From: Candidatus Galacturonatibacter soehngenii
GTDB lineage: Bacteria; Bacillota; Clostridia; Lachnospirales; Lachnospiraceae
DNA: 64,000 nucleotides
Assembly (NCBI RefSeq): GCF_008830185.1
Contig: NZ_WAGX01000005.1
Coordinates: forward strand, 1,116,001-1,180,000
Reading direction: 5' to 3'
Every line of letters starts with the position of its first letter. Position 1 is the first letter of the stretch. Below, in pieces: positions 9,022-64,000 of this stretch. A program made the position numbers and the translations under genes. The notes beneath the pieces were generated by a model. That model saw nothing but the letters and a program-made list of their open reading frames with translations. It was not told the origin of the DNA and did no database searches.

Positions 9022-10456
9022 TCACCACCTGTGCTACAATTAGCTTGTTATTCGAGATACACAGTTGTGTATCTGTTTATGTAAGATACATCTTCTTGTG
9101 TTACTGTTAGTCCTCGAAAACTTTCCAGTAGGCCTGAAGATGTATTTTTTATGCTCTGTTTTAGTTCCTTTATATACGGATTCCACGCAAGATAGAGTTG
9201 CATCAGAATATCCGATATCTGTGTCAGCAGGTAATGGTTCTTCATCGCATTACTGTTTTTACTGTTAAGATGTTCGATGCGATAAATTCCATTCTTCTGA
9301 TTATTAAATCCTTCATTTTCTATTTTCCAACGACCTCTTCCTGCAAGTATTATTTCTTCCAGATTTCGATTGGTTACTTCTAGACTACTTATCCATTGAA
9401 AACGAATTATCTGCTTTTTCCCTTCTTTATCTTTCGTCTCATATTCATACTCTAATACATTCATGACCTCTTCTTTTTCAGCAAGTTCTTCCACATGGTT
9501 TGCATAATAGGCCGTTCCTTTTTCTTTACAGAGCCCTTTCTTTCGCGTTGTATCTTCGCCGCTTTTGATCCATTCAAATCCCTCACCCAGTTTCTTTTGT
9601 CTGGTATTTTTCTGTGTAAAAAGATACTCCCAATGATATTTTTTTCGGCAAAGATTCATGAATGGTTCTGTTGCATACAAAGCATCCCCCTGTACACAAA
9701 TCGGCAGTCTTTTGTAGTCTTTCTTTATTTTCTTTAGCAGACGTTTTGCTGCGTTTATTTCACAATCTTGCTTGCTTATATCTTCTTTTTCATTTTCTAT
9801 GAATTCCGTACCTAGGCTTATAACTACATTATCATTCAATACAATTTTTGCTTCCAACACTTTATGATAGTACAACTTCATTGCCTTTCCATCGTCCGTC
9901 TTCCTTGTCACGCAAAGACAGTTATCACAATGCTTCTCTTTGAAATAGAACAAACCCGTTCCATCCAGAATAATACGCCAGTATTTTCCTAGCATACGTC
10001 CTCTGTTGAACTGTTTCCCACGGATTAGACTTGTAACCATCTTTTTCCTCAAGCCTGACAGGCAATCTGGCGAAAGTTTTTCGAGATAATAATTCAAGGT
10101 ATCATAGTGAGGCATTTCCTCTAGGTTCTGATTTCCTGACATAAGACGTAAAGTAGCAATACATGTTTCCTTATTAAAGTTTTCTTCCATTTCCCTCATT
10201 GAGTGCTGTCCACATACATTTTTCAGAATTGCCATATAAGTTAGATCCGTTTGTGTATATGTGGTATAACTCGGGTTCCTTGGATCATCCATTTCCAAAA
10301 TCCATTCTTTCAATGCATGAAAAAAATGATTAGCAACCATCATAAAATCAACAATTCCACGGTCCTGTTTTTTACGCTTACGTTTTTCCTTTTTTGTCAT
10401 CTGTATCCTCCTGTGCGAAAAGTTTCTTGCTTATATTTTACCGCACAGGTGGTCAC
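9022..10456 (-). mobile_element. IS4-like insertion sequence, about 1.43 kb, apparently intact
   Basis: A single transposase gene is flanked by an imperfect terminal inverted repeat: TCACCACCTGTGC at 9023-9034 region and its inverse GCACAGGTGGTCA at 10443-10455 (the 11 bases ACCACCTGTGC are identical). The exact tips and the target duplication could not be fixed by eye. Left arm is 13 bases past the transposase stop, right arm about 43 bases before its start. Confidence 0.7.
9048..10400 (-). CDS. DDE transposase of an IS4-like insertion sequence
   Basis: A protein of 450 residues with a very basic N-terminus (KKEKRKRKKQ). DDE residues can be placed: Asp in ILDGTGLFYF, Asp in VQGDALYATEPFMN, and Glu in GRWKIENEGFNNQKNG, which matches the Y-R-E-K type signature of IS4-superfamily enzymes. 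A CDNCLC motif sits between the first two. The frame is uninterrupted. I cannot assign it to a named IS family from memory with confidence; ISNCY-like groups are an alternative. Confidence 0.85.
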   Translation of the reverse strand: MTKKEKRKRKKQDRGIVDFMMVANHFFHALKEWILEMDDPRNPSYTTYTQTDLTYMAILKNVCGQHSMREMEENFNKETCIATLRLMSGNQNLEEMPHYDTLNYYLEKLSPDCLSGLRKKMVTSLIRGKQFNRGRMLGKYWRIILDGTGLFYFKEKHCDNCLCVTRKTDDGKAMKLYYHKVLEAKIVLNDNVVISLGTEFIENEKEDISKQDCEINAAKRLLKKIKKDYKRLPICVQGDALYATEPFMNLCRKKYHWEYLFTQKNTRQKKLGEGFEWIKSGEDTTRKKGLCKEKGTAYYANHVEELAEKEEVMNVLEYEYETKDKEGKKQIIRFQWISSLEVTNRNLEEIILAGRGRWKIENEGFNNQKNGIYRIEHLNSKNSNAMKNHYLLTQISDILMQLYLAWNPYIKELKQSIKNTSSGLLESFRGLTVTQEDVSYINRYTTVYLE

Positions 10457-10672
10457 CCTGCATGAAATTTAAATATTTTATTGCGAAAAATTTTTATTCC
10501 TCAAAGCTGATCCGCAAGATTATTTATTTGCAGATAAATTTAACATAAAACTAATATTCACCTATATGATTACATTTTTAAATATATTAATTTTAAGTGA
10601 TGCAAAAAATGCTATCAAAATGGAAAATGACAGTAAAAAGTGCACTCATATCCTTTCGATATTGACAGGAAT

Positions 10673-12525
10673 AGGGGCTGTTGCAAAATGACTGATTTTT
10701 AGTCATTGAGCAGCAACCTTGTTTTTTTTCTATTTTATGGAAGTGAATAGAATCTCATTTTGTTTTTATGCGCACTTTAATAAGGTATAATCTTTCTCTC
10801 TTTTATGCTGGTCTTTTCAAACTGTGCAGATAGGATTTTAACCTGTCATTTTGTATCTTGGCATGAAGTTTGTTAATGTTATAGCCAAAACACAGTAACA
10901 TAAATTCAGTTTTTACTCGGTTTTTGCCACGTGTTAAAAATCTTTGAAATTCATAGTCACTTTTTAGCACCCCAAATGCACCTTCAACCTGAATGGAACG
11001 GTTCATACGAAGTCTTGCCCCTTCTTCTATACTTATGTTACGATAGGATATTTCACGCTTTTCTATGAAGGTTTTAGAAACCTGCATCTTGCGATTCCCT
11101 TTCGCTTTCGTACATTTTTCTTTCCATTGACAACCCTCACAACTCTCGCATTCATACACTGTCACTTCCGAAATATATCCAGTAGCCGACTTGCGGTGTA
11201 CGATGCCCTTTGGTCTTAACATTTTCCCATTGTGGCAGGTATAACTATCGGTCTCCTGATTGTAAGACATATTTTCCCGCTTGCTGATATCCTTTTTGAA
11301 GCTTTTCTTTTTCCATTTTTCATAAGTCTGGGGCTTGATATAGGGTGTCTGCTGATTCTCTTCCAAATATAGATAATTCTCTTCACTTTCATATCCAGAA
11401 TCAGCTATCACATTTGTATATTTTCTGCCCAGTTTTTTAGACATGGTCTCCAGCATAGGGATTAGGGTTGCTATGTCATTTCTATCTTGGAAGATACCAA
11501 CTCCCACCACGTATTCGCTCTCCACTCCAATCTGTACATTATATGCTGGTTTAAGCTGGGAATTACGCATGTGATCGTCCTTCATATGCATGAAAGTGGC
11601 ATCCGGATCCGTTTTGGAATAGCTGTTTCGCCCAACCATCTGGGTATTTCCATAATCATACTTTTCTTTTCGTTCTTTAAACTCTGTCAGCTGTTCTGTC
11701 CATTTTTGAATGGAACTTTTCCGTTTTCCTATACCATGTACAAATGTAATTTTTCGTTTTGTCTTCTCTTCATCCAGCCACTTGGACACCTGATTCATAT
11801 CTTCCGGTAAAGTGTCGCGTGATACGAAAAAATCTTTGATTTCTGATTGGTTGATTTCTGCTATAAGAGCCTGGATTTTTGGATACATCTTTTCTTCGTT
11901 TTTCTTGATTACTTTTTTCCAGACAAAAGTATAGCGGTTTGCATTCGCCTCTATTTTTGTTCCGTCAATAAATAAATTTTTATACTGGATTTCTTCCACT
12001 TCTGCAAGATATCTTACCTGTTGGTAGAAAATGTCATCCATCACCTCGTCCGTTAGATAAAACTGCCGAAAACGGCTTATCGCACAGTGGTCTGGCGCTT
12101 GAGTACCAGCAAGTAGCCACCGAAAGTTGATGTCACGAAGGCAGGCTTTTTCTATTTTCCTGCTAGAATAAATGTTTTGCGAATAAGCATAAGTCACTAC
12201 CTTGCACATGATCTGCGGTTCCACTGCTGGTTTTCTTCCTGTAGAAGCATAAGCCTGATACAACTTCGTGTAATCCAATCCCTCCATAACGTGGCTATGC
12301 AGTCGGACAGAGTCATCTTCTGGTATAAGACTTTCCAAATTTAATGGTAAAACTAATTGATAAGAATCATTAAATTCGGTATAATCTTTATAGTTAATTA
12401 CGTTACTTGTCATAACATAATTATACTATTAATGCAGGTTCTTCGGAACCTGCATTTTTCACCTAATGGCATAAAAAGGAGGCTGTTGAAAACTAACCTA
12501 ATTAGTTAGTTTTGCAACAGCCCCT
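10673..12525 (-). mobile_element. IS1182-family insertion sequence, 1,853 bp, intact
   Basis: Perfect 16-base terminal inverted repeats AGGGGCTGTTGCAAAA at 10673-10688 and its inverse at 12510-12525, surrounding one full-length transposase gene. Both ends also fold on themselves: at the left, GGCTGTTGC...AGTCATT pairs with the following AGCAGCAACC (10676-10720); at the right, GGCTGTTGAAAACTAAC pairs with GTTAGTTTTGCAACAGCC (12480-12523). Such end hairpins can shield the transposase from outside transcription. Insertion is only 217 bases from the IS4-like element. Confidence 0.88.
10803..12413 (-). CDS. IS1182-family transposase
   Basis: A protein of 536 residues, the usual length for the family. 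The N-terminal domain reads LPLNLESLIPEDDSVR and the typical IYSSRKIEKACLRDINFRWLLAG; DDE elements include NLFIDGTKIEANANRYTF, NVIADSGYESEENY and the C-terminal RSIQVEGAFGVLKSDYEF. A CxxC cluster (CESCEGCQWKEKC) lies near residue 430, as is common in this family. The frame is intact, so the element may still be active. Confidence 0.93.
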   Translation of the reverse strand: MTSNVINYKDYTEFNDSYQLVLPLNLESLIPEDDSVRLHSHVMEGLDYTKLYQAYASTGRKPAVEPQIMCKVVTYAYSQNIYSSRKIEKACLRDINFRWLLAGTQAPDHCAISRFRQFYLTDEVMDDIFYQQVRYLAEVEEIQYKNLFIDGTKIEANANRYTFVWKKVIKKNEEKMYPKIQALIAEINQSEIKDFFVSRDTLPEDMNQVSKWLDEEKTKRKITFVHGIGKRKSSIQKWTEQLTEFKERKEKYDYGNTQMVGRNSYSKTDPDATFMHMKDDHMRNSQLKPAYNVQIGVESEYVVGVGIFQDRNDIATLIPMLETMSKKLGRKYTNVIADSGYESEENYLYLEENQQTPYIKPQTYEKWKKKSFKKDISKRENMSYNQETDSYTCHNGKMLRPKGIVHRKSATGYISEVTVYECESCEGCQWKEKCTKAKGNRKMQVSKTFIEKREISYRNISIEEGARLRMNRSIQVEGAFGVLKSDYEFQRFLTRGKNRVKTEFMLLCFGYNINKLHAKIQNDRLKSYLHSLKRPA

Positions 12526-53282: not shown

Positions 53283-54875
53283 TTATTTTATACATTGTTT
53301 TATAGATTCCAATCCCACCCGACTTACAAATTGATGAAATAGTTCCTCTTCGTTTCGATTATCAAGGTAAAAAAGTATCAGTCTTTCAATCGCTAAATGA
53401 ACTTCACTTGCTTTTATACGACAATCCAAGTTTTCTGCGAATTTTCCATCACCATATAGCGTACCACCAATCCACATAGTAAACGCATCTACAAGACCTT
53501 CGTCTGTCTTAATCTTTGCTCCTTGCAAGCTGATATCTGCTATTTGCTTTTGTCCACATGAATTTGGGCAACCTGTTATGTGAATTCTGATAGGAGTTTC
53601 TAACTTTATTTTATCATTTAAGTAGGTTATTATCTCTCGTGCTCGATTCTTTGTTTCCACAATCGCCAAATTACAAAATTCCTTACCAGTACAAGCAACC
53701 GTATGGCCAAGAAAGGAGTCTGGATGAGGTGACAAACGTTTAAAAACCTCGTGTTCTAGCACTTGTGAAAGATTTGAATCATCTATCCCAGTAAGGATAA
53801 GATTTTGGGTTAACGTGGTTCTTATGCTACCATCGCCATATTCTTCACTGATATTAGCAAGCGCAAACAGTTCATCTGCTGTTACTTCGCCAAATGGAAC
53901 ATTTAGCCCAATGTAATTTTTCTTACCTTGCTTTTGAGCATGCACCCCATGGTAATAAGATGCATTCCAATCAACCATTTCATCTTCACCACGTTCATTT
54001 ATTACGTCAACATATTCTAATAATTTATTCTGAAATTTTTGAGCGCCCCAGTCTTTTATTAAGAATTTAAGCCTTGCATGGGTTCTTTTTTCTCGATATC
54101 CGTAATCTCTAAATATGGTACATGCTGCCCTCGCAACTGATAATACTTCTTCTGGTTTCACGAATAAGTCAAGCTTTTGTGCTAGCATTGGAGCTGCCGA
54201 TAAGCCTCCGCCTACCCATACATGAAATCCAATTGTTCTTTTTCCATCTATTTCTTTTGTTGCTGGTGTAAATGCCAAATCATTGATTTGAGCATGCCCT
54301 GCATTGTGTATGCTAGAAGAAATTGATATTTTAAATTTCCTTGGTAGATTCGAAAAATCTTTATTCAGCACAAAAAATTCATTCACTTGGTGTACCAAAG
54401 AAGTGGTATCTAATAGTTCCTCTTTGTCTACTCCTGTGATAGGGTTTCCTACAATGGTTCTTGGGCAATCACCACATGCTTCAACGCTACTTAAGGAACA
54501 AGAAGCAAGTCTTTCAAATATACTTGGAATATTTTCAACTTGAATCCAGTGAAATTGAATTGCACCTCTGGTTGTAATATTGGCAACTCCACGTCCAAAA
54601 TCCTTTGCAATTCCTGCTAAAACCTTAAGCTGCTGCTTTGTAATGATTCCAGAATTAATACGAACCCTCATCATAAAATATCCATCTCTAGGCTTTTGCT
54701 CATACACTCCTGCCCATTTAAAACGATTCATATCATCAGGTGTAATGGAAGAATACCCTTCTTTTGAATATTTATCGATAATGGTTTGAATGACATCCAA
54801 ACCATCTTTTTCAAGCTTGATATATTCCACTTCATTTAACTTATCATTATCAGACCATATTGCTTTGTAAGACAT
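53283..54875 (-). CDS. Siroheme-[4Fe-4S] nitrite/sulfite reductase
   Basis: A protein of 530 residues with two ferredoxin-like half domains and two NIR_SIR domains. The cluster/siroheme ligands are CTGKEFC (about 405-411) and CPNSC (about 449-453); ITTRGAIQFHW and RINSGIITKQQL are typical of the ferredoxin-dependent assimilatory type. GAGGAG lies before the ATG. It is encoded alone, without reductase partner, so ferredoxin is the likely donor. Nitrite versus sulfite cannot be decided from the sequence alone. Confidence 0.9.
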   Translation of the reverse strand: MSYKAIWSDNDKLNEVEYIKLEKDGLDVIQTIIDKYSKEGYSSITPDDMNRFKWAGVYEQKPRDGYFMMRVRINSGIITKQQLKVLAGIAKDFGRGVANITTRGAIQFHWIQVENIPSIFERLASCSLSSVEACGDCPRTIVGNPITGVDKEELLDTTSLVHQVNEFFVLNKDFSNLPRKFKISISSSIHNAGHAQINDLAFTPATKEIDGKRTIGFHVWVGGGLSAAPMLAQKLDLFVKPEEVLSVARAACTIFRDYGYREKRTHARLKFLIKDWGAQKFQNKLLEYVDVINERGEDEMVDWNASYYHGVHAQKQGKKNYIGLNVPFGEVTADELFALANISEEYGDGSIRTTLTQNLILTGIDDSNLSQVLEHEVFKRLSPHPDSFLGHTVACTGKEFCNLAIVETKNRAREIITYLNDKIKLETPIRIHITGCPNSCGQKQIADISLQGAKIKTDEGLVDAFTMWIGGTLYGDGKFAENLDCRIKASEVHLAIERLILFYLDNRNEEELFHQFVSRVGLESIKQCIK

Positions 54876-55035
54876 GATATCTCCTCATTCCTTTTTTATT
54901 TTCTATTGTTACTCTATCAATATACAAGAATCCTACCATTCTTTTCCACCAGTATAACATATACCTTTTTCAAGGAACAAGTAATAATTTCTGATAACAA
55001 GAGCAATTCATTCTATGAGTATGAACTTATCAGCC

Positions 55036-55575
55036 TTATTTATTTAAATATCTAAAGTCACGACTTACACCATCGTTAAAATATAAAAGTGAATCAAACG
55101 CAGATATCTTTAGTCTTCCTTCTTCATTTAAATATTCATTTGCTATTAATCTACCTTTGATAACTGCCAAAATATTTGTGATACCTGTGTAGTTTTTACT
55201 TTCTAATACATCTGTAAGTGTACACTCAAGTGAAACAGGACACTCTTTTATTATAGGTGCATTTACTACTTCCGATGCAACAGTGGTTAGATTCAAATGT
55301 TCAAACTTCTTACAGGTTTCACCTGTGTTTTTGCCACAAAATTCAATTTCATTTAATAACGTTTGATCTGGTATGTTAATTACAAAATCCGACACCTCTT
55401 TTATCTGTTTAATTGCATACCCTTTACTACTAAACCCTAGTGCTACCATATCTTTTAATGTATAGGAGGAGGATAACGTAGTGACATTTGCATTTCCATT
55501 TTCATCATAATAACTGATTAGGATGACTGGGAATCCATAATACATTTTTTCATAATTTACTCTTATTTTTTCCAT
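55036..55575 (-). CDS. Flavoredoxin/flavin reductase-like FMN-binding protein
   Basis: A protein of 179 residues with the split-barrel flavin-reductase fold: YGFPVILISYYDENGNANVTTLSSSYTLKDMVALGFSSKGYA (FMN-binding region) and KEVSDFVINIP, FCGKNTGETCKKF. Anaerobes use such proteins as flavoredoxins or in electron delivery. It lies between the Crp/Fnr regulator and the siroheme reductase and could serve the latter; this is inference. Confidence 0.87.
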   Translation of the reverse strand: MEKIRVNYEKMYYGFPVILISYYDENGNANVTTLSSSYTLKDMVALGFSSKGYAIKQIKEVSDFVINIPDQTLLNEIEFCGKNTGETCKKFEHLNLTTVASEVVNAPIIKECPVSLECTLTDVLESKNYTGITNILAVIKGRLIANEYLNEEGRLKISAFDSLLYFNDGVSRDFRYLNK

Positions 55576-55636
55576 AACAATAAATACCCTTTCTTAATTG
55601 ATTATCTGTTTTATCATTTCTTTTCAATTAAAGCAA

Positions 55637-55685
55637 AAAAAGAATAGCAGGAATGTTGCGTATGCAACATACCTAGTATTCTTTT
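55637..55685 (-). terminator. Terminator after the Crp/Fnr gene
   Basis: AAAAGAATA (55637-55645) and TATTCTTTT (55677-55685) with an inner ATGTTGCGTATGCAACAT palindrome (55653-55670), followed on the minus strand by a T-run. Confidence 0.8.
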
Positions 55686-55686
55686 C

Positions 55687-56370
55687 TTAGTTTAATGGCT
55701 TCAAAATTCGAAACATATCCTTATCATAATCAATCAGCCCTTCTTGTTTCATTTGTTTTAACTCTCTAGTTAATGCACTTCTGTCTGCACATAAAAATTC
55801 GGCCATCTTGATTCTTCCCATATCGATTGAAAAATATTGACTTTTCTTTTTCTCTCCTTGAATCACTAAAAAAGCTACTATTTTTTCTCTTAATGTCTTT
55901 TTTGATATCACTTCAATTTTCTGCATTAATTGTATGTTCTTCTTAGCTATTAACGATACCAGATTCTCAATCAGACGATAATGAACCTCACATTCCTCCT
56001 TACAAGAATGTAGCACTTTTTGATAAGGCAAATATAATACCTTGGTATCTGCTCCAGCCACGAATGATACCGTTGATTGAATCATTTGTCCACACGCAAA
56101 TGTCTCTCCAAACAATTCTTTTGGTTTTACATTTACTAGTGTTGTTTTATTCCCAAAAAGATCCTCTTTAATCATTAAAACATTACCTTCTAAAACAACT
56201 CCTATGCAGTCTACATGTTCTTCAAATAGAATCATAAATTCATTTTTTTGATATTTTTTTATATAAGCGCGAAAGCACTCTAACATAGAAATAATTTGTT
56301 TTTTTTCGATCCCCTGAAATAACTCCACCTCTTTATACGTATTTAGGTAGTCCTTAATATTTTCTTGCAT
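55687..56370 (-). CDS. Crp/Fnr-family transcriptional regulator
   Basis: A protein of 227 residues: N-terminal cyclic-nucleotide-binding-like beta barrel (FMILFEEHVDCIGVVLEGNVLMI, PKELFGETFACGQMIQSTVSFVAGADTKVLYLPYQKVL) and a C-terminal winged HTH (IKMAEFLCADRSALTRELKQMKQEGLI). Start uncertain: ATG 56370 has AGGTGA nearby, while GTG 56379 and ATG 56376 lie just upstream. The Cys spacing does not match the FNR iron-sulfur motif. Its nearness to redox genes on both sides suggests it controls them. Confidence 0.87.
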   Translation of the reverse strand: MQENIKDYLNTYKEVELFQGIEKKQIISMLECFRAYIKKYQKNEFMILFEEHVDCIGVVLEGNVLMIKEDLFGNKTTLVNVKPKELFGETFACGQMIQSTVSFVAGADTKVLYLPYQKVLHSCKEECEVHYRLIENLVSLIAKKNIQLMQKIEVISKKTLREKIVAFLVIQGEKKKSQYFSIDMGRIKMAEFLCADRSALTRELKQMKQEGLIDYDKDMFRILKPLN

Positions 56371-56420
56371 TTTCATCACCTGTTAAAAGTATAGCACAGG
56401 TGTAATAATCTTTACATTAT

Positions 56421-57503
56421 TTATTTTTTACAAGGAATTGGCTTTTTAGGGCATCTTGGCTTTACTGCACCTGCTTTTACAATTGCGTGCTCGTCACATG
56501 CGTCAAGGCATACACCACACTGGCTACACTCTTCTTGTTCAATTACATGAATGAATTTTTTCTTTCCAAGAATTGCATCCTCTTCGCACTCATCTGCACA
56601 TTCCATACAGCCCGTACATAAATCTGGTAATATATGAAATGTCACATACTTTGCACAAACTCCAGCCTTGCAACTTTTCTTTGTAATATGTTCCTCAATC
56701 TCATTTCGAAAATAAGAAATGGCTCTACTTACTACCTTTGCAATTGTTACACCTATTTCGCATAAAGACTGTTCTTTCATTCTATCACAAAGCTCAATTA
56801 GTAAATCAAGGTCTGCTTGTTTTCCTTTTTTCAACGTGATATCCGTTAGAATCATACAAATCTGTGTAATACCCTCATGTCCAAATACACATCTTCCACA
56901 GCTTTCACGACTAAAACGCTCTGCTGTTTTTAACAGAAAATGCAATACGCAATTGGTTTCGTCTAAAATCTCAATATAATCGGTTGTCAAAAGAATTTCC
57001 TCATCCAATTTACTCTCATCTATTAACAGTCCCATTGGATGACCAAAATACATCCCTTTAAACTTTTCTTTGCTCTTGCATGCATCTAGAATTTTTCTTG
57101 GAGTTATTTGTTTTGTAAACTCGAAAACTCCACTTATGTTTGCATTTCCTGTAATAAAGACTTTCTTCGTTTGTTCCCCAAGTAGTTCTTCAACAGATAC
57201 AACTTGTTTTGCTTTCTCTAATTCATTTGCCTCATATGGTATGGCTTTTTCTCCCTCTACTACTTTTAAAAGTGCAGAATGATTGCCGTATGTAAACCCA
57301 AAGTCTTGCTTTGCTCTAATTAAAGTAACTTTAGATGATACTTTAATATCTGACAGACTATTAGGAACAATCAAGTAACACGTTTCTTTTTCATTTTCTT
57401 GTAGTAAGGATAAGATTTGTTCTTGCTTTTCTTTTAAAAGTAAGAGAGAAACGGGAGCTTCTTCATAAATTGGCACTGCGTTACAAACTAATATTTCCTT
57501 CAT
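56421..57503 (-). CDS. NuoF-like SLBB/4Fe-4S protein without the FMN domain
   Basis: A protein of 360 residues. After a divergent N-terminal region come an SLBB-like segment (about 160-200; NISGVFEFTKQITPRKILDACK), the NuoF-type N3 cluster motif ESCGRCVFGHEG (about 215), and two ferredoxin-type CxxCxxCxxxC clusters (LCTGCMECADEC and CSQCGVCLDAC) before a basic tail. The GRGGAGFPTG-type FMN/NADH motif of NuoF is absent, so it cannot oxidise NADH alone. Start at ATG 57503 after GGAGGAG; an upstream ATG (57527) overlaps the preceding gene. Likely an electron relay working with the two upstream proteins. Confidence 0.82.
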   Translation of the reverse strand: MKEILVCNAVPIYEEAPVSLLLLKEKQEQILSLLQENEKETCYLIVPNSLSDIKVSSKVTLIRAKQDFGFTYGNHSALLKVVEGEKAIPYEANELEKAKQVVSVEELLGEQTKKVFITGNANISGVFEFTKQITPRKILDACKSKEKFKGMYFGHPMGLLIDESKLDEEILLTTDYIEILDETNCVLHFLLKTAERFSRESCGRCVFGHEGITQICMILTDITLKKGKQADLDLLIELCDRMKEQSLCEIGVTIAKVVSRAISYFRNEIEEHITKKSCKAGVCAKYVTFHILPDLCTGCMECADECEEDAILGKKKFIHVIEQEECSQCGVCLDACDEHAIVKAGAVKPRCPKKPIPCKK

Positions 57504-57516
57504 CTTTTCTCTCCTC

Positions 57517-59607
57517 CTAATATTCATTCCAAAGTTTTGGTCTTGACAGATTTAATCGTAAATCACATTGTAGACAACGACTAGCTTCACAGGAAGACTC
57601 CAAGCAGGTAAATGGTTTTTCTACTGTCGCAAAGCTTTTGACTCTTTCCTTTGCTTCCAATAATTCAGGATATAAGCGTTTTAACTCTCCAAATCCTTCC
57701 TGTCGTCCAATCAATGGGTTAGGCGTTTCCTTATCTAATAATTCCTCACTAATATCGCCGTTTCCTCCAAGGTAGAGATCCATCTCCTCTGCCGCTTGTC
57801 TTCCTGCTGCAATGGCTGCGATTACCGATTTGGTTCCAGTCACAACATCTCCAGCCGCAAAAACTCCTGTGACGTTTGTTTGAAGACAGTTATCGACCTT
57901 AATATAAGGTCCATGCGTTAATTCCACACCAAACTCTTTTGTTCCTTTTGGTCTTTGTCCAACGGCAAAGATAACCGTATCCACTGGTACAATTTCCTTC
58001 GTACCTTCTACCAATTCAATGACTGCTTTTTTATTTTCATCAAAATAGAATTTATCAACTTGTTGAAGCTCAACACCCTCTACCTTTTTTTCACCTGTAA
58101 TACGAAGGAAGGAATGTGCAGAATGTAAAATGACTCCTTCTTCTTTTCCTTCTTCCATTTCATCTTGAGTCGCCGTCATCGTTTGTTCGTTTTCTAGGCA
58201 GGCAATGTGCACCTCTTTTGCTCCCAGACGTAGAGCTGTTCTTGCGCAATCATAGGCTACATTTCCACCACCAAGTACCATGACCTTTTCACCAAGATTT
58301 TGCTCCTGATTCATACGTGCATTTTTTAAGAAGGTCGCATTCACCATAACACCTTCTAGTTCACTGCCTTCTATCGTAAGTATGCTACCTTCATGTGTCC
58401 CAGTCGATAATAATACACTGTCATAGCCTTGTAAAAGTAAGTCCTTTGGTACTTTGACACTGGTATTGGTCAATAGTTTAATGCCGACTTCTAATATATC
58501 GTCAATCTCACGATCTAGTACTTCATCTGGTAAACGGTACGACGGGATTCCATACCGACATTGCCCTCCAGCTTTTTCATTTTCCTCTAGAATCGTTACT
58601 TCATGTCCTTTTTTTGCCAAATAATAGGCAGCTGTTAAACCAGCTGGTCCAGCTCCCACAATGGCAACTTTTTTCCCAGTTGGCGCTTCTATGTTTCTTT
58701 TTTCCTTCCAGTCTTGTGAGTGATTTGTAGCCGCCGCCCTTTTTAACTTACAAATAGATAGGGGCTTTCCAAGTTCATTTCTCTTACAAGCATCTTCACA
58801 AATGTGATTGCAGATACACCCAAGAGTCTCTGGAAAAGGTAGTTTTTCTCGAATGACTGCAGTTGCTTTTTCATAATTTTCATCCTTAATATATCTTAAG
58901 TATCTTGGTATATCTGTGTGAGCTGGACAGGCGGTTTTACAAGGAACCAAATTTTCTGCGTAGGACATTTCTTCTTTCATCATTCCTAGCGCGTCCATAA
59001 TGGAGCCTGTTGGGCATACTTCAATGCAAGCACCGCAAAACTTACATCCTGCCTCCTTTAATGATACATTTCCATCTGTTCCAATCCGCACTCCATCTTT
59101 TGTCTTTTGAAAATCCAATACCTTAACGCCTCGTAACTCTCTACAGGCACGTACACAACGACCGCAGCGTATACATCTTGTAAATAAGTGCATAATTAAT
59201 GGATTGCTCTCATCCGTTGCTACCGTTCTTGTTTTCTTTTTCCAACGCTGCGGACTCACTCCCATATATTGGTACAAAGACTGTAATTCGCACTTTCCAT
59301 ATTTGGGGCATCCCGTACAATCGGCTGGATGTGTGGCAAGAATTAACTCCATTGCAGTTTTTCTTGTTTGATTCGCTTTGTCTCCATTGATGGTAACAAC
59401 CATTCCTTCTTTCGCCATTGTTTTACAGGAAGGAACTGCTTGTTCTATTCCCTCAATTTCCACACAGCAAAGACGACATCCTCCCACTGCTTCTAAGTCT
59501 GGATGCTTACACAGATGTGGAATATACATTCCCGCATTGAGTGCTGCATCAAGAACCGACATACCTTCTATTGCTTCCACTTCTTTTTGATCTATCGTAA
59601 TCTTCAT
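57517..59607 (-). CDS. Ferredoxin/NuoG-like/GltD-like NAD(P)-dependent Fe-S flavoprotein
   Basis: A protein of 696 residues. Order: 2Fe-2S ferredoxin (CKHPDLEAVGGCRLCCVEI, to about 75), His/Cys-rich NuoG cluster domain (HPADCTGCPKYGKCELQ), two 4Fe-4S clusters (CIRCGRCVRACRE, CKFCGACIEVCPTG, about 140-205), the GltD N-terminal Cys cluster (CNHICEDACKR), and a GltD-like FAD/NAD(P)H oxidoreductase (VAIVGAGPAGLTAAYYLAKKG; second GxGxxG in VMVLGGGNVAYD; AAGDVVTG). It should pass electrons between NAD(P)H and iron-sulfur partners. Start at ATG 59607 after GGAGG; the ATG at 59619 lies in that site. Confidence 0.9.
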   Translation of the reverse strand: MKITIDQKEVEAIEGMSVLDAALNAGMYIPHLCKHPDLEAVGGCRLCCVEIEGIEQAVPSCKTMAKEGMVVTINGDKANQTRKTAMELILATHPADCTGCPKYGKCELQSLYQYMGVSPQRWKKKTRTVATDESNPLIMHLFTRCIRCGRCVRACRELRGVKVLDFQKTKDGVRIGTDGNVSLKEAGCKFCGACIEVCPTGSIMDALGMMKEEMSYAENLVPCKTACPAHTDIPRYLRYIKDENYEKATAVIREKLPFPETLGCICNHICEDACKRNELGKPLSICKLKRAAATNHSQDWKEKRNIEAPTGKKVAIVGAGPAGLTAAYYLAKKGHEVTILEENEKAGGQCRYGIPSYRLPDEVLDREIDDILEVGIKLLTNTSVKVPKDLLLQGYDSVLLSTGTHEGSILTIEGSELEGVMVNATFLKNARMNQEQNLGEKVMVLGGGNVAYDCARTALRLGAKEVHIACLENEQTMTATQDEMEEGKEEGVILHSAHSFLRITGEKKVEGVELQQVDKFYFDENKKAVIELVEGTKEIVPVDTVIFAVGQRPKGTKEFGVELTHGPYIKVDNCLQTNVTGVFAAGDVVTGTKSVIAAIAAGRQAAEEMDLYLGGNGDISEELLDKETPNPLIGRQEGFGELKRLYPELLEAKERVKSFATVEKPFTCLESSCEASRCLQCDLRLNLSRPKLWNEY

Positions 59608-59631
59608 TCGTTCCTCCATATGGTTAGGGAA

Positions 59632-59670
59632 GGACTGTAATGAACCTTATTTTACTGTTCATTACAGCCC
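59632..59670 (-). repeat. Intercistronic hairpin in the redox operon
   Basis: GGACTGTAATGAAC (59632-59645) and GTTCATTACAGCCC (59657-59670) pair over 14 bases with one mismatch. No T-run follows on the transcript, so it may be an mRNA-processing or stability element that sets different levels of the reductase and its electron donor. Confidence 0.6.
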
Positions 59671-59686
59671 TATCTTTATTCCTAAA

Positions 59687-61168
59687 TTAAAATTCTACTG
59701 CCTCTTCTGCCGCATTCTCACCAGCAATTCTTCCACTGTTTAGACAAAATCCCATTGTATTTCCAGATAGGATAAAAGGATAGCTATCTCCAAAAATGTT
59801 ACAAGCGTCCGTTCCAACACAGTAAAGTCCAGGTATCACTTTTGCCTCATCATTAAGCACCTGCGTTTTGTGATTAATTAACACGCCTCCCAAAGAACCA
59901 TACGCTCCTACATTTTGTCTACAGCAATAAAATGGACCTTTTTCAATTGGCTGCATGTACGCTCTGTCTTTTTCAAAAATTTCATCAAATCCAGCATCGC
60001 ACATATCATTGTATTCTTCTATTTGCTTTACCAATCCCTCTACATCAATTCCTGCTTTTTCTGCCAATTCTTCAATGGTATCTGCCTGACAAATTGGTTC
60101 ATACCCATCCTTTATATCCTTTTCCCATTGTTCATCAAAATGGTCAAAAAGGTCATGTGGATGCACATGTGATATAATATCAGAACCTTTTTTCTTATAT
60201 TTTTTCAATAACTTACTATCAAAAATGGAATAAGCAACACAACCTGGTTGTGCGGTAATTGCATTTCCTGTAAATGTAGTATTTGCAATCTGATCTTCAG
60301 GCATGAAACGCTGTCCGTTTCGGTTTACCCAAAGACAAGGCTGGCGAAATGCACCATCTAATATAAAGTGATTCATATTATCTGGAAGCTGGTACATCAA
60401 TTCCATGGTACACTCAGTACGCCCTGCTCCTGCTTCCCATGCCATATTAATTCCATCACCCTTCATTCCAGGGATTGCAAAATTAAAAATAGTTTTCCCA
60501 AACTCATATCCCGTTTGTTCTTGAATCATCTTTGGATTATCTCCAAAGCCACCCGTTGCAAGAATAACCACTTTTGCTCTGGCTTCAATTTCTTCTCCGT
60601 CTTTATCTTTAGCAAGCACACCCACTACTGCATTATTCTCAACAATTAACTTAGTTACTGGAGTTTCCATTAAAAATTCTACTCCAAGCTCTCTTGCTTT
60701 CTCCGTCATTTTCTTAGTCATAGCAGTTGCACATCGAGGTCCTGGTGCTCCACCACCTTCTGGCTTTACTACATGCCAAGTAAATTCACCATCTGAATAC
60801 GCTCTAGTTGCCTCTGGTGCACTAAAAGCTCTTTGTACCCCCATAAATTCTACTCCCATGTCCATCAACCACTCAATGGTATCTCCTGATTTAAAGTAAT
60901 AATCGCGAACCATGCGTGCATCTACTCTATAATGCGTATAGTACATGTGTTTTCGAAATGCCTCTCCTGGCGTCAACGAAACCATATGCTCTTTTTGAAT
61001 TGGAGAACCAACTCCCAATGGCCCCATACCCATGTTTGCAGCTCCACCTGTTGTGTTTGACTTCTCAAAACAAATAACTTGAGCCCCATTTTCTGCTGCT
61101 GCTATACTTGCTGCAAGTCCAGAAAGACCAGCCGCTACCACAATAACATCTGTTGATAGATTTTTCAT
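59687..61168 (-). CDS. FAD-dependent reductase of the fumarate-reductase flavoprotein family (soluble)
   Basis: A protein of 493 residues: FAD-binding VIVVAAGLSGLAASIAAAENGAQVICFEKSNTTGGAAN (GxGxxG appears as AAGLSG), RAKVVILATGGFGDN, GMKGDGINMAWEAGA and C-terminal LYCVGTDACNIFGDSYPF...MGFCLNSGRIAGENAA. No signal peptide and no FMN_bind or heme domain, so it is cytoplasmic and needs a protein donor. Residues equivalent to the fumarate-binding Arg/His set of Fcc3 are replaced (GQRFMPEDQIAN, RQNVGAYGSLGG). Probably reduces another unsaturated or keto compound. Start at 61168 after GGAGG; the ATG at 61183 overlaps it. Confidence 0.88.
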   Translation of the reverse strand: MKNLSTDVIVVAAGLSGLAASIAAAENGAQVICFEKSNTTGGAANMGMGPLGVGSPIQKEHMVSLTPGEAFRKHMYYTHYRVDARMVRDYYFKSGDTIEWLMDMGVEFMGVQRAFSAPEATRAYSDGEFTWHVVKPEGGGAPGPRCATAMTKKMTEKARELGVEFLMETPVTKLIVENNAVVGVLAKDKDGEEIEARAKVVILATGGFGDNPKMIQEQTGYEFGKTIFNFAIPGMKGDGINMAWEAGAGRTECTMELMYQLPDNMNHFILDGAFRQPCLWVNRNGQRFMPEDQIANTTFTGNAITAQPGCVAYSIFDSKLLKKYKKKGSDIISHVHPHDLFDHFDEQWEKDIKDGYEPICQADTIEELAEKAGIDVEGLVKQIEEYNDMCDAGFDEIFEKDRAYMQPIEKGPFYCCRQNVGAYGSLGGVLINHKTQVLNDEAKVIPGLYCVGTDACNIFGDSYPFILSGNTMGFCLNSGRIAGENAAEEAVEF

Positions 61169-61292
61169 TTGAAATACCTCCATTTAATTCGTTAAATTAT
61201 TAACGTCCTTCTATGTATGATTATACGATTCTATGCTCTACGCGTCCAATATCAAAAAGCTGTGTCAGTTATAACCAAAAGTTATTAATTAT

Positions 61293-62237
61293 TTAAATTG
61301 ACTTAAATTGAATATTTTTATATTTTACAAGCTTCTCATTTACTATCTCACGGTTTACTGGATTCTGAAAAAAGCCTCCTTGTGTATGTGCAATCTCTTC
61401 CAAATGCTTTGCTCTTCCTTCTACCGTCGTACGATCTCGGCATAATCCATCTTCTTGAATTACAAATTTCCATTTTTTATCTTGAGTTTGTTCCAAGTTT
61501 CCACCAGCTCCACAAACTTGACATTCCACTGGAAAGTAAAGCCCATCCCACTGAACTTCACCAAGAACTAACGCATTGGAATGACAATTTGGACACCACC
61601 CCATATCCTCATCACCCAGCCACTTTCTATCCTTAGGAGCCGTTTTTACTGCCGTCATGATATTTTTCCCAACTTTTCGTGCTCTTTCAAGCATCTCATC
61701 ATGAAGCAAACATTGTGCTGGTGCTGGTACTCTTGTAGCCAAATACATATCAATTACTTGCATATCTGTTGTAAACATAGCAGCCTGCATAGATTCCAAT
61801 GCCATTGACTGCCATGATCTAGTAGAGCCCCCAACCGCGATGAGTGCGCTTACTCTATCCTTGTGTTCAATTGCTTTGATTGTCTCTAAAAATGCTGTCT
61901 CATAGCTTAAACTTCTTTGTGCGAACTTAGCAAACGTGGAACATGACATCAAATCATATGTCGGAGAAGAAAATATGACCGCATCGCAATCTAACATAAC
62001 TTCCATAATTTTTTTCTTATCATCTTTTTTATCCAGTACACACCCAACGTTCTTTCCCTGTGACATTCCAATCGTACAAGCGGTACAACCAGTACAATCT
62101 AAGATATTGTAATCTCTTAAATTAATCATGGTCACATCTGCTCCTGATTCCTGACAGACCAAAAGAGCCTCTTTTAATAAAATCTCACTATTACTGTTTG
62201 CACGCCCTGCGCTTATTCCCATTACTTTTACTGACAT
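61293..62237 (-). CDS. Iron-sulfur flavoprotein, NADPH-dependent FMN reductase family, with zinc-ribbon tail
   Basis: A protein of 314 residues. Flavodoxin-like FMN fold (VKVMGISAGRANSNSEILLKEAL, VIFSSPTYDL) with the compact CTGCTACTIG...C motif (residues about 50-68) that in Isf-type proteins holds a 4Fe-4S cluster. A C-terminal extension of about 90 residues contains CPNC and CQVC pairs, likely a zinc ribbon or rubredoxin-like site. Start at ATG 62237 with AGGAG upstream; the frame extends to 62333 without a site. First gene of the redox operon, divergent from the PucR-type regulator. Confidence 0.87.
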   Translation of the reverse strand: MSVKVMGISAGRANSNSEILLKEALLVCQESGADVTMINLRDYNILDCTGCTACTIGMSQGKNVGCVLDKKDDKKKIMEVMLDCDAVIFSSPTYDLMSCSTFAKFAQRSLSYETAFLETIKAIEHKDRVSALIAVGGSTRSWQSMALESMQAAMFTTDMQVIDMYLATRVPAPAQCLLHDEMLERARKVGKNIMTAVKTAPKDRKWLGDEDMGWCPNCHSNALVLGEVQWDGLYFPVECQVCGAGGNLEQTQDKKWKFVIQEDGLCRDRTTVEGRAKHLEEIAHTQGGFFQNPVNREIVNEKLVKYKNIQFKSI

Positions 62238-62292
62238 ACCATTTTCTCCTTTTCTTTTTCCCTTAAATTTAGTACAATAGTCGAAAGAACAA

Positions 62293-62326
62293 TTTATGAA
62301 AAATGCACAAATAATTCTTTCATAAA
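62293..62326. promoter_or_regulatory. Inverted repeat in the divergent control region
   Basis: TTTATGAAA (62293-62301) and TTTCATAAA (62318-62326) are perfect inverse copies, 16 bases apart. A second pair, TGTAGGAAA (62377-62385) and TTTCCTACA (62429-62437), lies nearer the regulator gene. Both are plausible operators for the flanking genes. I found no clear promoter pair here. Confidence 0.5.
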
Positions 62327-62465
62327 AACCCAAATATAGCTTTTTTTCTGTATTGTTAAAATAATAACATTCGTATTGTAGGAAAGCATCCGTTAATCAT
62401 CGTATCTTTTGTGATATTTATCATGTTTTTTCCTACATTTGTAGCATCGATAATAAGGAGACCTT

Positions 62466-64000
62466 ATGGCATATCTCGAACACATTATTCAAAGGCTTGA
62501 AACAACCTTTCATATACAGGTACACGGAAACAGCACGCGCCATCTTCGTATTGAAAATGTCCAGTTTCTTGTAGCAGAAGATGAAAATTCGATTCATTTT
62601 CAGCCTGAAACACTCTACATTGGAAATTATCAAGAATTTCATTCCACAAAACAAAATGGATGCATTTTACTTTTAAACAGTTGTATGGATAGCCAAGCTG
62701 AAAATGGGCTTTATATTTATCAAGATCTCAATCCTTTTGCTGTCTGTAATTGTATTCAAGAGGAATTGTTTCAAAGTCATAAAGCTAATTTAAAAAAAGA
62801 TGAAATGCTTCATGTCCTACAAGCTGGTTATGGATTACAAAGCCTTTTGGATACCGCTAGAACCTTTCTTAACAATCCAATTACTCTTTGCACGACAAGT
62901 TTTTTCGTGCTTGCCTCTAGTCCTAAGCAATTTCAAGATGATAAATTTGACGTGTATAACAACAAATTTTATTTAGAAAACAACTTTATTCAAAATATGA
63001 AAGAGCAAAAAATATTGGATCACATTTTTGCTTCCTCCGCGCCAATCTATGCTACCTTTGAGGATTCAAAGAATATGGAATATTTATTTTGCAGTATCCA
63101 TATTAAGCACGCAGCTGTTGGATATCTTTGTCTTAGCTGCGCCATCCGTCCTTTTCGAAAGGAGGATTCCACCTTTTTGACAGAATTATCAAAAATGATT
63201 TCCATTGAGATGCAAAAAGATGACTTTTACACTGAAAAATCAGGGCTAAAATACGAATATTTTTTGACTGATTTGATGGAACAAAATATTACAAACCTTG
63301 ATTTTGCAACAAAGCGTCTGGCTCAACTTGGACATACCCTCTACCAATATTTTTGGGTGATTGGATTTTCATTTGACAGTCTTAGTGCCAGCTATATGAA
63401 TCCTAATTACTACATTGATCAGCTACTTGGTATTTTTAGAAATAGTATGGTGTTTTTTTATAAAGGTAACCTTATATTATTACTGTCAAGTAAGTATAGG
63501 AATCCATACGAGAAAGTTAATACACAAAAGCTCTCTCATTTTCTACAACTAAATCAAATGAATATTGCCCTTAGTTTTCGTTATGAAAATCTTTTGGATA
63601 CCCATGTTTATTACAAACAGGTATGCTTTTTACTAAAAAAGGATTGTTGTAACACAATATCTTTGTTTCGCAACTATGAAGATAATTATATGTTTCACCT
63701 ATTTGAAGGTGTGCAAAACACAATGAATCTAAAGAGTATCGTTCACCCTGATATTTATTTTTTACAAAAATACGACCAAGAAAACCACACGGAATATATT
63801 ACTACTTTACAAGCGTACTTTTTGAATAGCCGAAATGCTTTGAGTGCCTCCAATTATTTACATATACACAAAAGTACTTTTTTCTATCGAATAGGAAAAA
63901 TCAAAGACTTAACAGGGTTTGATTTAGAAAATGAAACCATATTGTTTGCATATGAGTTTTCGTTTTACTTGCTTTCTTACCTTAAGAATACCAATGAATA
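62466..64000 (+). CDS. PucR/CdaR-type transcriptional regulator (runs to the window edge)
   Basis: The frame is open for 511 codons and ends with GAATA, so the last two bases are probably the first two of a TAA or TAG stop just outside the window. AAGGAG lies five bases before the ATG. The N-terminal and central parts (about 1-400) have no recognised motif but resemble the sensory and GGDEF-like regions of CdaR/PucR proteins. The last 60 residues (FLNSRNALSASNYLHIHKSTFFYRIGKIKDLTG) form the PucR C-terminal HTH. Members activate catabolic genes in response to a substrate; the divergent redox operon is the obvious target. Confidence 0.85.
   Translation, partial: MAYLEHIIQRLETTFHIQVHGNSTRHLRIENVQFLVAEDENSIHFQPETLYIGNYQEFHSTKQNGCILLLNSCMDSQAENGLYIYQDLNPFAVCNCIQEELFQSHKANLKKDEMLHVLQAGYGLQSLLDTARTFLNNPITLCTTSFFVLASSPKQFQDDKFDVYNNKFYLENNFIQNMKEQKILDHIFASSAPIYATFEDSKNMEYLFCSIHIKHAAVGYLCLSCAIRPFRKEDSTFLTELSKMISIEMQKDDFYTEKSGLKYEYFLTDLMEQNITNLDFATKRLAQLGHTLYQYFWVIGFSFDSLSASYMNPNYYIDQLLGIFRNSMVFFYKGNLILLLSSKYRNPYEKVNTQKLSHFLQLNQMNIALSFRYENLLDTHVYYKQVCFLLKKDCCNTISLFRNYEDNYMFHLFEGVQNTMNLKSIVHPDIYFLQKYDQENHTEYITTLQAYFLNSRNALSASNYLHIHKSTFFYRIGKIKDLTGFDLENETILFAYEFSFYLLSYLKNTNE

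Follow-up and report, generated by a model that had tools for sequence, protein, structure and literature searches.

The last part of a 64,000-nucleotide stretch of the Candidatus Galacturonatibacter soehngenii genome (contig C5, positions 1116001–1180000; this whole stretch is hereafter the window) carries four co-directional genes whose products appear to make up a real, widespread reductase system dedicated to polyphenols. The source genome is 4.1 Mb in size with a completeness of 99.99%. All four genes lie on the minus strand. The first (61293–62237) encodes a 314-residue flavin mononucleotide (FMN) protein, a homologue of the FLR family of ene-reductases with a flavodoxin fold, a CxxCxxC...C motif, a C-terminal zinc ribbon plus helix and a match to Pfam FMN_red. 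It is followed by genes for a predicted flavin adenine dinucleotide (FAD)-dependent C=C reductase of 493 residues (59687–61168), for a predicted electron-entry protein of 696 residues (57517–59607) and for a predicted NuoF/HydB-like iron-sulfur (Fe-S) relay protein of 360 residues (56421–57503). Judged from domain matches and Fe-S Cys motifs, the electron-entry protein joins a NuoG-like part (2Fe-2S, 4Fe-4S) to a GltD-like part for FAD and NAD(P)H, the reduced form of nicotinamide adenine dinucleotide (phosphate). A PucR-type regulator (PF13556) is read divergently on the plus strand from 62466 to beyond the window end at 64000, with its stop by position 502 of L065, the continuation of this genome past the window. 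The starts of the four reductase genes were re-read from their ribosome sites; for the FAD gene, the GGAGG in front of the start at 61168 falls within a longer open reading frame (ORF). The four genes, their good ribosome sites and the divergent regulator were all found where a preliminary description had placed them.

The FAD protein has the flavocytochrome c/ketosteroid dehydrogenase fold. Its AlphaFold2 model (mean predicted local distance difference test score, pLDDT, 76.6) matched fumarate and urocanate reductases (Foldseek, VIA; Z about 34–35), with the ketosteroid dehydrogenase 4c3x scoring only slightly lower (Z 33.9, root-mean-square deviation 2.9 over 436). The sequence scan revealed no CxxCH motif, no FMN_bind match and no membrane part, and the most hydrophobic stretch (mean Kyte–Doolittle value 1.89 from residue 10) coincides with the strand in the FAD-binding motif, which bears out the earlier picture of a fumarate-reductase-fold protein without heme, FMN_bind domain or membrane anchor. 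The dicarboxylate-binding residues of fumarate reductase, which we take to be H365, R402, H504 and R544, served as reference for the pocket. Residue counts here and below refer to matched stretches rather than whole ORFs, with rows that were too short or contained stops dropped; from 74 loci, 70 FAD, 43 FMN, 63 GltD and 65 NuoF-like rows were kept. Y261, aligned with H365, was Tyr in 65 of 71 rows and never His; T299, aligned with R402, was never Arg in the same 71; Y425, aligned with H504, was Tyr in 71/71; and I468, aligned with R544 at a position adjoining an alignment gap, was uncharged in all of the 70 rows displayed out of 71. The FAD protein thus shares the FAD/capping-domain fold of the flavocytochrome c fumarate and urocanate reductases, yet lacks the counterpart His and Arg residues, so its substrate is probably not a dicarboxylate. 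A pocket with Tyr for two His and with two Arg missing is in keeping with a phenolic alkene or a neutral enone, as far as the alignment can tell.

The nearest NCBIfam model for the FAD protein is the vinyl phenol reductase VprA (NF053717), at 347.6 bits against an equivalog cut-off of 600. VprA is itself a phenolic C=C reductase (PMC10295242). The FAD protein differs from it in falling below the family cut-off and in its genetic setting, since vprA was mapped with the LysR gene vprR, and feeder genes go unmentioned in the available part of that review. The FAD protein matched 10 families, and PF00724, taken here as the alpha/beta-barrel family, was not one of them. Window positions 210–1661 encode a second flavocytochrome c/VprA-like FAD protein, truncated at its start by the edge of the window; it scored 235 bits to VprA and gave no match in a PHROGs scan.

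The partner FMN protein is best placed, by sequence, in the FLR family. Its sole PDB sequence match was FLR of Flavonifractor plautii (7d38; E 9e-26, 94 bits), a distant relative whose homology is nearly full-length (residues 4–292 of 314), embracing both the flavodoxin-type FMN domain and the C-terminal tail. W142, H278 and I282 align with W149, H271 and I275 of FLR and were invariant in 44/44 rows, as were the four zinc-ribbon Cys; FLR G106 lands in an alignment gap, and FLR K282 pairs with Phe. In FLR, mutants of G106, W149, H271 and I275 lost activity, and the alanine mutants of W149, H271 and I275 lost much of it (PMC7862272). The CxxCxxC...C motif of the FMN protein (C48, C51, C54 and C66) was likewise invariant in 44/44 rows, and the PDB alignment showed the same Cys pattern in FLR. 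A compact motif of this type binds 4Fe-4S in the Isf iron-sulfur flavoproteins. The preliminary description had called the protein Isf-like with a zinc-ribbon tail: motif and ribbon are both present, and Isf as its sole identity was set aside because the only PDB sequence match is FLR. The terms iron-sulfur and Fe-S are absent from the main text of the FLR paper (PMC7862272). The FMN protein would catalyze a neighboring reduction of the flavone-to-flavanone type, a reductive entry into flavonoid breakdown like that of FLR (PMC7862272), from which it differs in adjoining a FAD reductase with its own electron feeder. Since the activity assay of FLR was coupled to an added NADH:FMN oxidoreductase (PMC7862272), the natural electron donor of FLR looks open.

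For the feeder, the Fe-S motif Cys of the NuoG/GltD protein were invariant in 64/64 rows. NADPH enzymes of the GltD type usually carry Arg at the NAD(P) ribose position. The window protein has E471 there, the residue after 'CL', and Glu was found in 64/64 rows, so NADH is the predicted donor. The protein matches StnC and Nfn-ABC. The NuoF-like protein matches the NuoF Fe-S region (PF10589) and ferredoxin-type clusters (Fer4), with the C-terminal parts of HydB and StnB as relatives, and its model (pLDDT 83.9) retrieved HydB, the B chain of Nfn-ABC and StnB as structural matches. Neither PF01512, the FMN/NADH domain, nor SLBB was matched in the family scan, and the FMN/NADH loop motifs occurred in 0/66 matched stretches; the whole ORF measured 172–238 residues in 25 loci and 360–400 in 25 others. 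The protein is therefore read as an Fe-S relay on its domain matches: of the SLBB/4Fe-4S relay proposed earlier, the Fe-S relay held, and the SLBB part, for which no match was found, did not, nor was there an FMN/NADH domain. With StnABC, Nfn-ABC and HydABC (8oh5, 9bov, 8a6t; PMC10482914) the set shares a NuoG plus GltD entry subunit and a HydB-like Fe-S relay, and it differs in that the relay has no FMN/NADH domain match and the neighboring gene encodes an organic-substrate reductase. In Stn, the FAD of the GltD domain accepts electrons from NADPH and hands them on singly without bifurcation (PMC10482914).

Conservation of the set was followed in two samples, with locus gene labels and match thresholds set by the analyst. 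When a species-genome collection was scanned with six peptides taken from the FAD protein of the window, 63 loci emerged, which lean to close relatives because they were found through that protein; 150 genomes drawn evenly from the family are free of this bias. The 63 loci came from Lachnospiraceae, Clostridium, Tissierella, Fusobacteriaceae, Oscillospiraceae, Olsenella and Collinsella, with Treponema and Sedimentibacter as distant members, at identities of 45–93%; the closest named locus was that of Konateibacter massiliensis (FAD protein 93%; the own genome was perhaps left out of the search). In 62/63 loci the FAD gene had a NuoG/GltD gene within 2.5 kb, on the same strand in 61, and in the remaining locus (L035) the contig ends 48 bases past the FAD match. 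A NuoF-like gene lay within 5 kb in 58/63. The usual order was FAD-GltD-NuoF, with GltD-NuoF-FAD in three loci (L058–L060). A close FMN homologue was found within 5.5 kb of the FAD gene in 45/63, and an FMN or FLR2-type gene anywhere in the locus in 51. Among 11 regions around distant FAD homologues (46–56% identity), nine contained GltD and NuoF-like genes.

In the 150-genome sample, the FAD protein (E ≤1e-100) was present in 12 genomes and GltD (E ≤1e-120), always in one copy, in 13, with 12 shared (Fisher 7.5e-17); put otherwise, GltD occurred in 12/12 FAD-positive and 1/138 FAD-negative genomes. Because GltD tracks the FAD protein in 12 of 13 genomes, the feeder looks dedicated to the FAD reductase. 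FLR-like proteins were found in 14 genomes, 11 of them shared with FAD (Fisher 2.9e-13). The preliminary description had named rare co-occurrence in relatives as what would count against it, and the genes proved to travel together, by locus and by genome. The lone GltD-positive, FAD-negative genome (G075, C132:808–2907) has a GltD-type partner at 49% identity and no FAD match at the threshold; it also encodes an FLR homologue, and its PF18089 match falls short of the cut-off.

The surroundings of the set point to polyphenols. In the same sample, PF18089, the family of phloretin hydrolase (Phy), exceeded its cut-off in 10/150 genomes, seven shared with FAD (Fisher 2.9e-7), and the C-glycoside deglycosidase CGDB (PF19906) in 13/150, eight shared (Fisher 1.1e-7); one or the other was over its cut-off in 12/12 FAD-positive genomes vs 7/138 FAD-negative ones. 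In the source genome this telling context, the C-deglycosidase and acyl-carrier/kinase genes, sits outside the window. L065 continues with a LysR regulator, an MFS transporter, a DUF1097 membrane protein, a butyrate-type kinase, a phosphotransacylase, a CocE/S15-type hydrolase, an acyl carrier protein, a second PucR regulator and a Gfo/Idh oxidoreductase, followed by CGDB, a TIM-barrel protein, a second FLR homologue (E 2.4e-37) and a GH1 glycosidase, with sugar-transport genes recognized by eye between and after them. The kinase, phosphotransacylase, CocE-type and carrier genes form one row at L065:3309–7516, just past the window end, and the Gfo/Idh, CGDB and TIM-barrel C-deglycosidase-type genes, the second FLR homologue, the sugar-transport genes and GH1 occupy L065:9312–17268, which we read as a polyphenol glycoside island.

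Six further loci (L004, L005, L006, L010, L036 and L052) carry genes for a short-chain dehydrogenase/reductase (SDR), a cyclase, BKACE, a thiolase, a coenzyme A (CoA)-transferase and PF18089, then PucR, FMN, FAD, GltD and NuoF. In L004, the SDR, PF04199, PF05853 and PF18089 matches were checked against Pfam, and a 3-hydroxyacyl-CoA dehydrogenase gene precedes them. The same gene families make up the phloroglucinol pathway of Clostridium scatologenes (PMC10470551). The likeness ends at the window genome, which has neither a PF18089 nor a cyclase-query match, and at the reductase set, which the available part of PMC10470551 does not mention. In L054, C-deglycosidase-type genes, the set, Phy, a CoA-transferase, an SDR and a cyclase stand together.

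Taken together, the FAD, NuoG/GltD and NuoF-like proteins would constitute a dedicated NADH-driven C=C reductase, the reductive front end of a flavonoid-type breakdown island, an assignment in which we place slightly better than even confidence. The three proteins would form one dedicated complex. In it, the GltD-type FAD would oxidize NADH, and the electrons would travel singly through the NuoG- and NuoF-like parts, from one Fe-S cluster to the next, until the second FAD enzyme transfers them, as hydride, onto a C=C bond that is activated and uncharged. We infer the formation of the complex, the direction of electron flow, the preference for NADH and the exact substrate alike. The likeliest step would be the conversion of flavanone/chalcone to dihydrochalcone, carried out in other gut bacteria by Fcr or by CHI plus an enoate reductase, and the dihydrochalcone would then pass to a cleaving partner module whose make-up varies with the lineage. 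This resembles the FLR-Fcr-Phy route of Eubacterium ramulus and Clostridium butyricum, with C-ring opening to a dihydrochalcone and cleavage by phloretin hydrolase (PMC11868195, PMC11170127). Fcr of E. ramulus has been described as an NADH-dependent reductase, and the one proposed for C. butyricum as a FAD-dependent oxidoreductase with an alpha/beta barrel (PMC11868195), which we equated with PF00724 by inference; the candidate of the set has the fumarate-reductase fold instead, and its two Fe-S partners are separate proteins. Among 88 unassigned proteins (at least 180 residues, from the 14 Phy loci), no more than one matched PF00724, judged from the 25 of 98 families displayed. On this context, the most likely substrate is a flavonoid-type polyphenol that is being broken down, not an acceptor for respiration. 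The soluble, NAD(P)H- and Fe-S-fed FAD reductase for a diet-derived compound that had been proposed earlier thus survives as something the conserved set could do, and the acceptor role gives way to the likelier breakdown route. Searches of the openly licensed literature found no paper describing the four-gene set.

Several observations weigh against this assignment. The dihydrochalcone step was assigned because it is the step not otherwise assigned in the six phloroglucinol-type loci, and this pathway gap is the weakest part of the choice of step. Fcr or CHI may exist elsewhere in these genomes, for which no search with Fcr or CHI sequences was made, and the own genome has one old-yellow-enzyme gene (PF00724). 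The labels PGR, DPGC and TAL were given from family and gene order, with no alignment to characterized proteins. The window genome showed no PF18089 match, while 11 other genomes match, and no match to the Phy or cyclase query in searches run without a positive control. No Phy, thiolase or CocE gene was found in 16/63 loci, some but not all of them cut by contig ends. In 18/63 loci the FAD gene has no close FMN homologue nearby; L053 has GltD on the opposite strand and a NuoF-like match under the threshold, L061 has no NuoF-like match, and L088 has a FAD homologue with no feeder genes within 17 kb. The FAD model is of middling confidence, with fumarate reductases and ketosteroid dehydrogenases nearly equal in Z, and the protein lies far under the VprA cut-off. 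The co-occurrence counts and Fisher values are uncorrected for relatedness. The product of the old-yellow-enzyme gene itself (L106, C5, about 571 kb) is a long protein whose additional C-terminal part resembles acetoacetate decarboxylase by eye, and the gene appears by eye to be divergent from a PucR-like regulator.

The same NADH-to-FAD reductase may act on the C=C bond of another phenolic, such as a vinylphenol, hydroxycinnamate, isoflavone, stilbene or C-glycoside aglycone, instead of a flavanone or chalcone, which we regard as possible though clearly less probable than the flavonoid assignment. VprA is the best named family, if under its cut-off, and the distant FAD homologues adjoin C-deglycosidase genes in 4/11 regions with a close FMN homologue in 0/11; C-deglycosidase systems act on several polyphenol classes. 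The adjacency of Phy and phloroglucinol-type genes in seven loci (the six of the L004 type and L054) and the FLR pocket residues kept in the partner FMN protein speak for flavonoids instead. It is unlikely that the main role of the GltD/NuoF-like pair is to supply the FLR-type FMN protein with electrons while the FAD protein acts separately. The FLR assay was coupled to an added oxidoreductase (PMC7862272), and Cys 48, 51, 54 and 66 of the FMN protein (44/44) could accept electrons from Fe-S proteins; however, in 61/63 loci GltD lies no more than 2.5 kb from the FAD gene and shares its strand, even where no close FMN homologue is nearby, and by genome it tracks FAD slightly better than FLR homologues do (12/12 vs 11/12).

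An electron-bifurcating or ferredoxin-linked transhydrogenase of the Stn/Nfn type, standing beside polyphenol genes by chance, would explain why Nfn-ABC, Stn and HydB are among the nearest solved relatives. We consider it very improbable given that the NuoF-like protein is without an FMN/NADH domain match, that no NuoE-like protein was present among the ten window proteins scanned and that GltD is confined to 13/150 genomes, of which 12 also encode the FAD reductase. Bifurcation by the set is thought unlikely for the first of these reasons. Least credible of all is an enzyme of fumarate- or carboxylate-reducing anaerobic respiration: the fold is common to flavocytochrome c fumarate reductase and urocanate reductase, but the aligned His and Arg are missing (71 rows), as are a heme motif, an FMN_bind match and a membrane part, and this role was rejected on the residues aligned with fumarate reductase.

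Bacteria of the gut and rumen determine which products of flavonoids become available to the host. The set offers a donor candidate for FLR-type enzymes and may represent a second, unrelated way of achieving the reductive opening. The combination of FAD, NuoG/GltD and NuoF-like genes may also serve as a marker for polyphenol degraders that a phloretin-hydrolase search misses, the window's own genome among them.

The modules that could cleave the reduced product differ between loci. Among the 63 loci, Phy was found in 14, a thiolase in 24 and a CocE-type enzyme in 14, and Phy shared its locus with thiolase or CocE in 0/14 cases, whereas 33/49 other loci contained one of the two (Fisher 3.9e-6, relatedness uncorrected). 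An acyl carrier protein was present in 30 loci, all 30 also with thiolase or CocE; carrier, transacylase and kinase accompanied CocE in 14/14 loci, and in the thiolase loci the carrier was found in 21/24, the transacylase in 21/24 and the kinase in 20/24. Residues of catalytic type were kept, with the carrier Ser in 36/37, Ser194 of CocE in 15/15, and Cys98 and Cys99 of the thiolase in all 25 aligned rows (L021 twice); PF00550 was matched by 2/3 acyl carrier proteins tested, with none in L037. The thiolase is kin of BbsB and PhlC, its best PDB match being the acetyl-CoA acetyltransferase 7yvy (E 2e-28), with PhlC (5m3k) weaker at E 2e-13. In Pseudomonas, PhlACB and PhlG are presumably the acyltransferase and the hydrolase of 2,4-diacetylphloroglucinol. 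The loci resemble that pair in that a PF18089 (PhlG-family) hydrolase and a thiolase partnered by a DUF35/ChsH2-type protein occur as alternatives beside the set, and differ in that the thiolase is nearer to 7yvy than to PhlC and has genes for an acyl carrier protein, a phosphotransacylase and a kinase alongside it. Thiolase and CocE modules stand together around one set in five Olsenella/Atopobiaceae-type loci (L041, L042, L043, L047 and L057).

An ATP-conserving cleavage can be proposed because Phy is excluded, because carrier, transacylase and kinase travel with CocE or thiolase, and because these residues are kept. The islands would then conserve energy from flavonoids by substrate-level phosphorylation via C-acyl transfer instead of hydrolysis, which we put forward as a doubtful idea. 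The NADH-driven reductase would yield a dihydrochalcone-like aryl ketone whose C-acyl bond is cut by acyl transfer and not by water; a CocE-type serine enzyme in the window genome, and in Butyrivibrio and others a thiolase paired with a DUF35-type protein, would move the phenylpropionyl group to a dedicated acyl carrier protein; phosphotransacylase would form the acyl phosphate, and the kinase ATP. The own-genome kinase scored 415 bits against a butyrate-kinase cut-off of 289 and may simply make butyrate, while the transacylase stayed below the Pta and Ptb cut-offs; the genome has one other, distant kinase relative (30%), adjoining a second transacylase (34%). In G123, a genome of the same genus whose FAD coordinates are those of L002 (K. 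massiliensis, a CocE row), a PF18089 gene lies about 365 kb away, so the exclusion of Phy holds per locus and not per genome. The kinase score and this PF18089 gene both lower the odds of the ATP-forming scheme. The plainer reading is that kinase and transacylase make butyrate or acetate from ring carbon, by analogy with C. scatologenes (PMC10470551). If the acyl-carrier/kinase reading were true, flavonoids would yield ATP at a step otherwise described as hydrolysis, and an energy-conserving step adjoining the reductase system would possibly be categorically new.

The PucR protein presumably responds for the reductase set. In 39/63 loci the FAD gene had a PucR homologue within 8 kb. Between the PucR and FMN genes, a conserved element, TGTTATTATTTTAACA, occurs as an exact copy at window positions 62354–62369 on the minus strand and may be an operator or promoter element; its chance expectation in the window at up to two mismatches is 0.45. 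At no more than two mismatches it recurred in the PucR/FMN interval of 12/22 relatives scanned, ten near ones (L002–L006, L010, L012, L015, L036 and L052) together with L021 and L028, and the other 10/22 gave no match there. A strong hairpin without a clear T run (z -4.8) lies at window positions 59620–59680 between the FAD and GltD genes, a possible processing or attenuation site, and because of this stable hairpin transcription across the set need not be uniform. Directly downstream of the set (53283–56379) are genes for a NirA-type siroheme reductase, a flavin-reductase-like protein and a Crp/Fnr regulator. These three genes were rejected as parts of the set, the NirA-type gene with 0/74 loci matching at the threshold used; the counts across loci covered the NirA-type gene and not the Crp/Fnr and flavin-reductase-like genes. 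At the other end of the window, two adjacent ORFs at 9048–12413 resemble transposases by eye.

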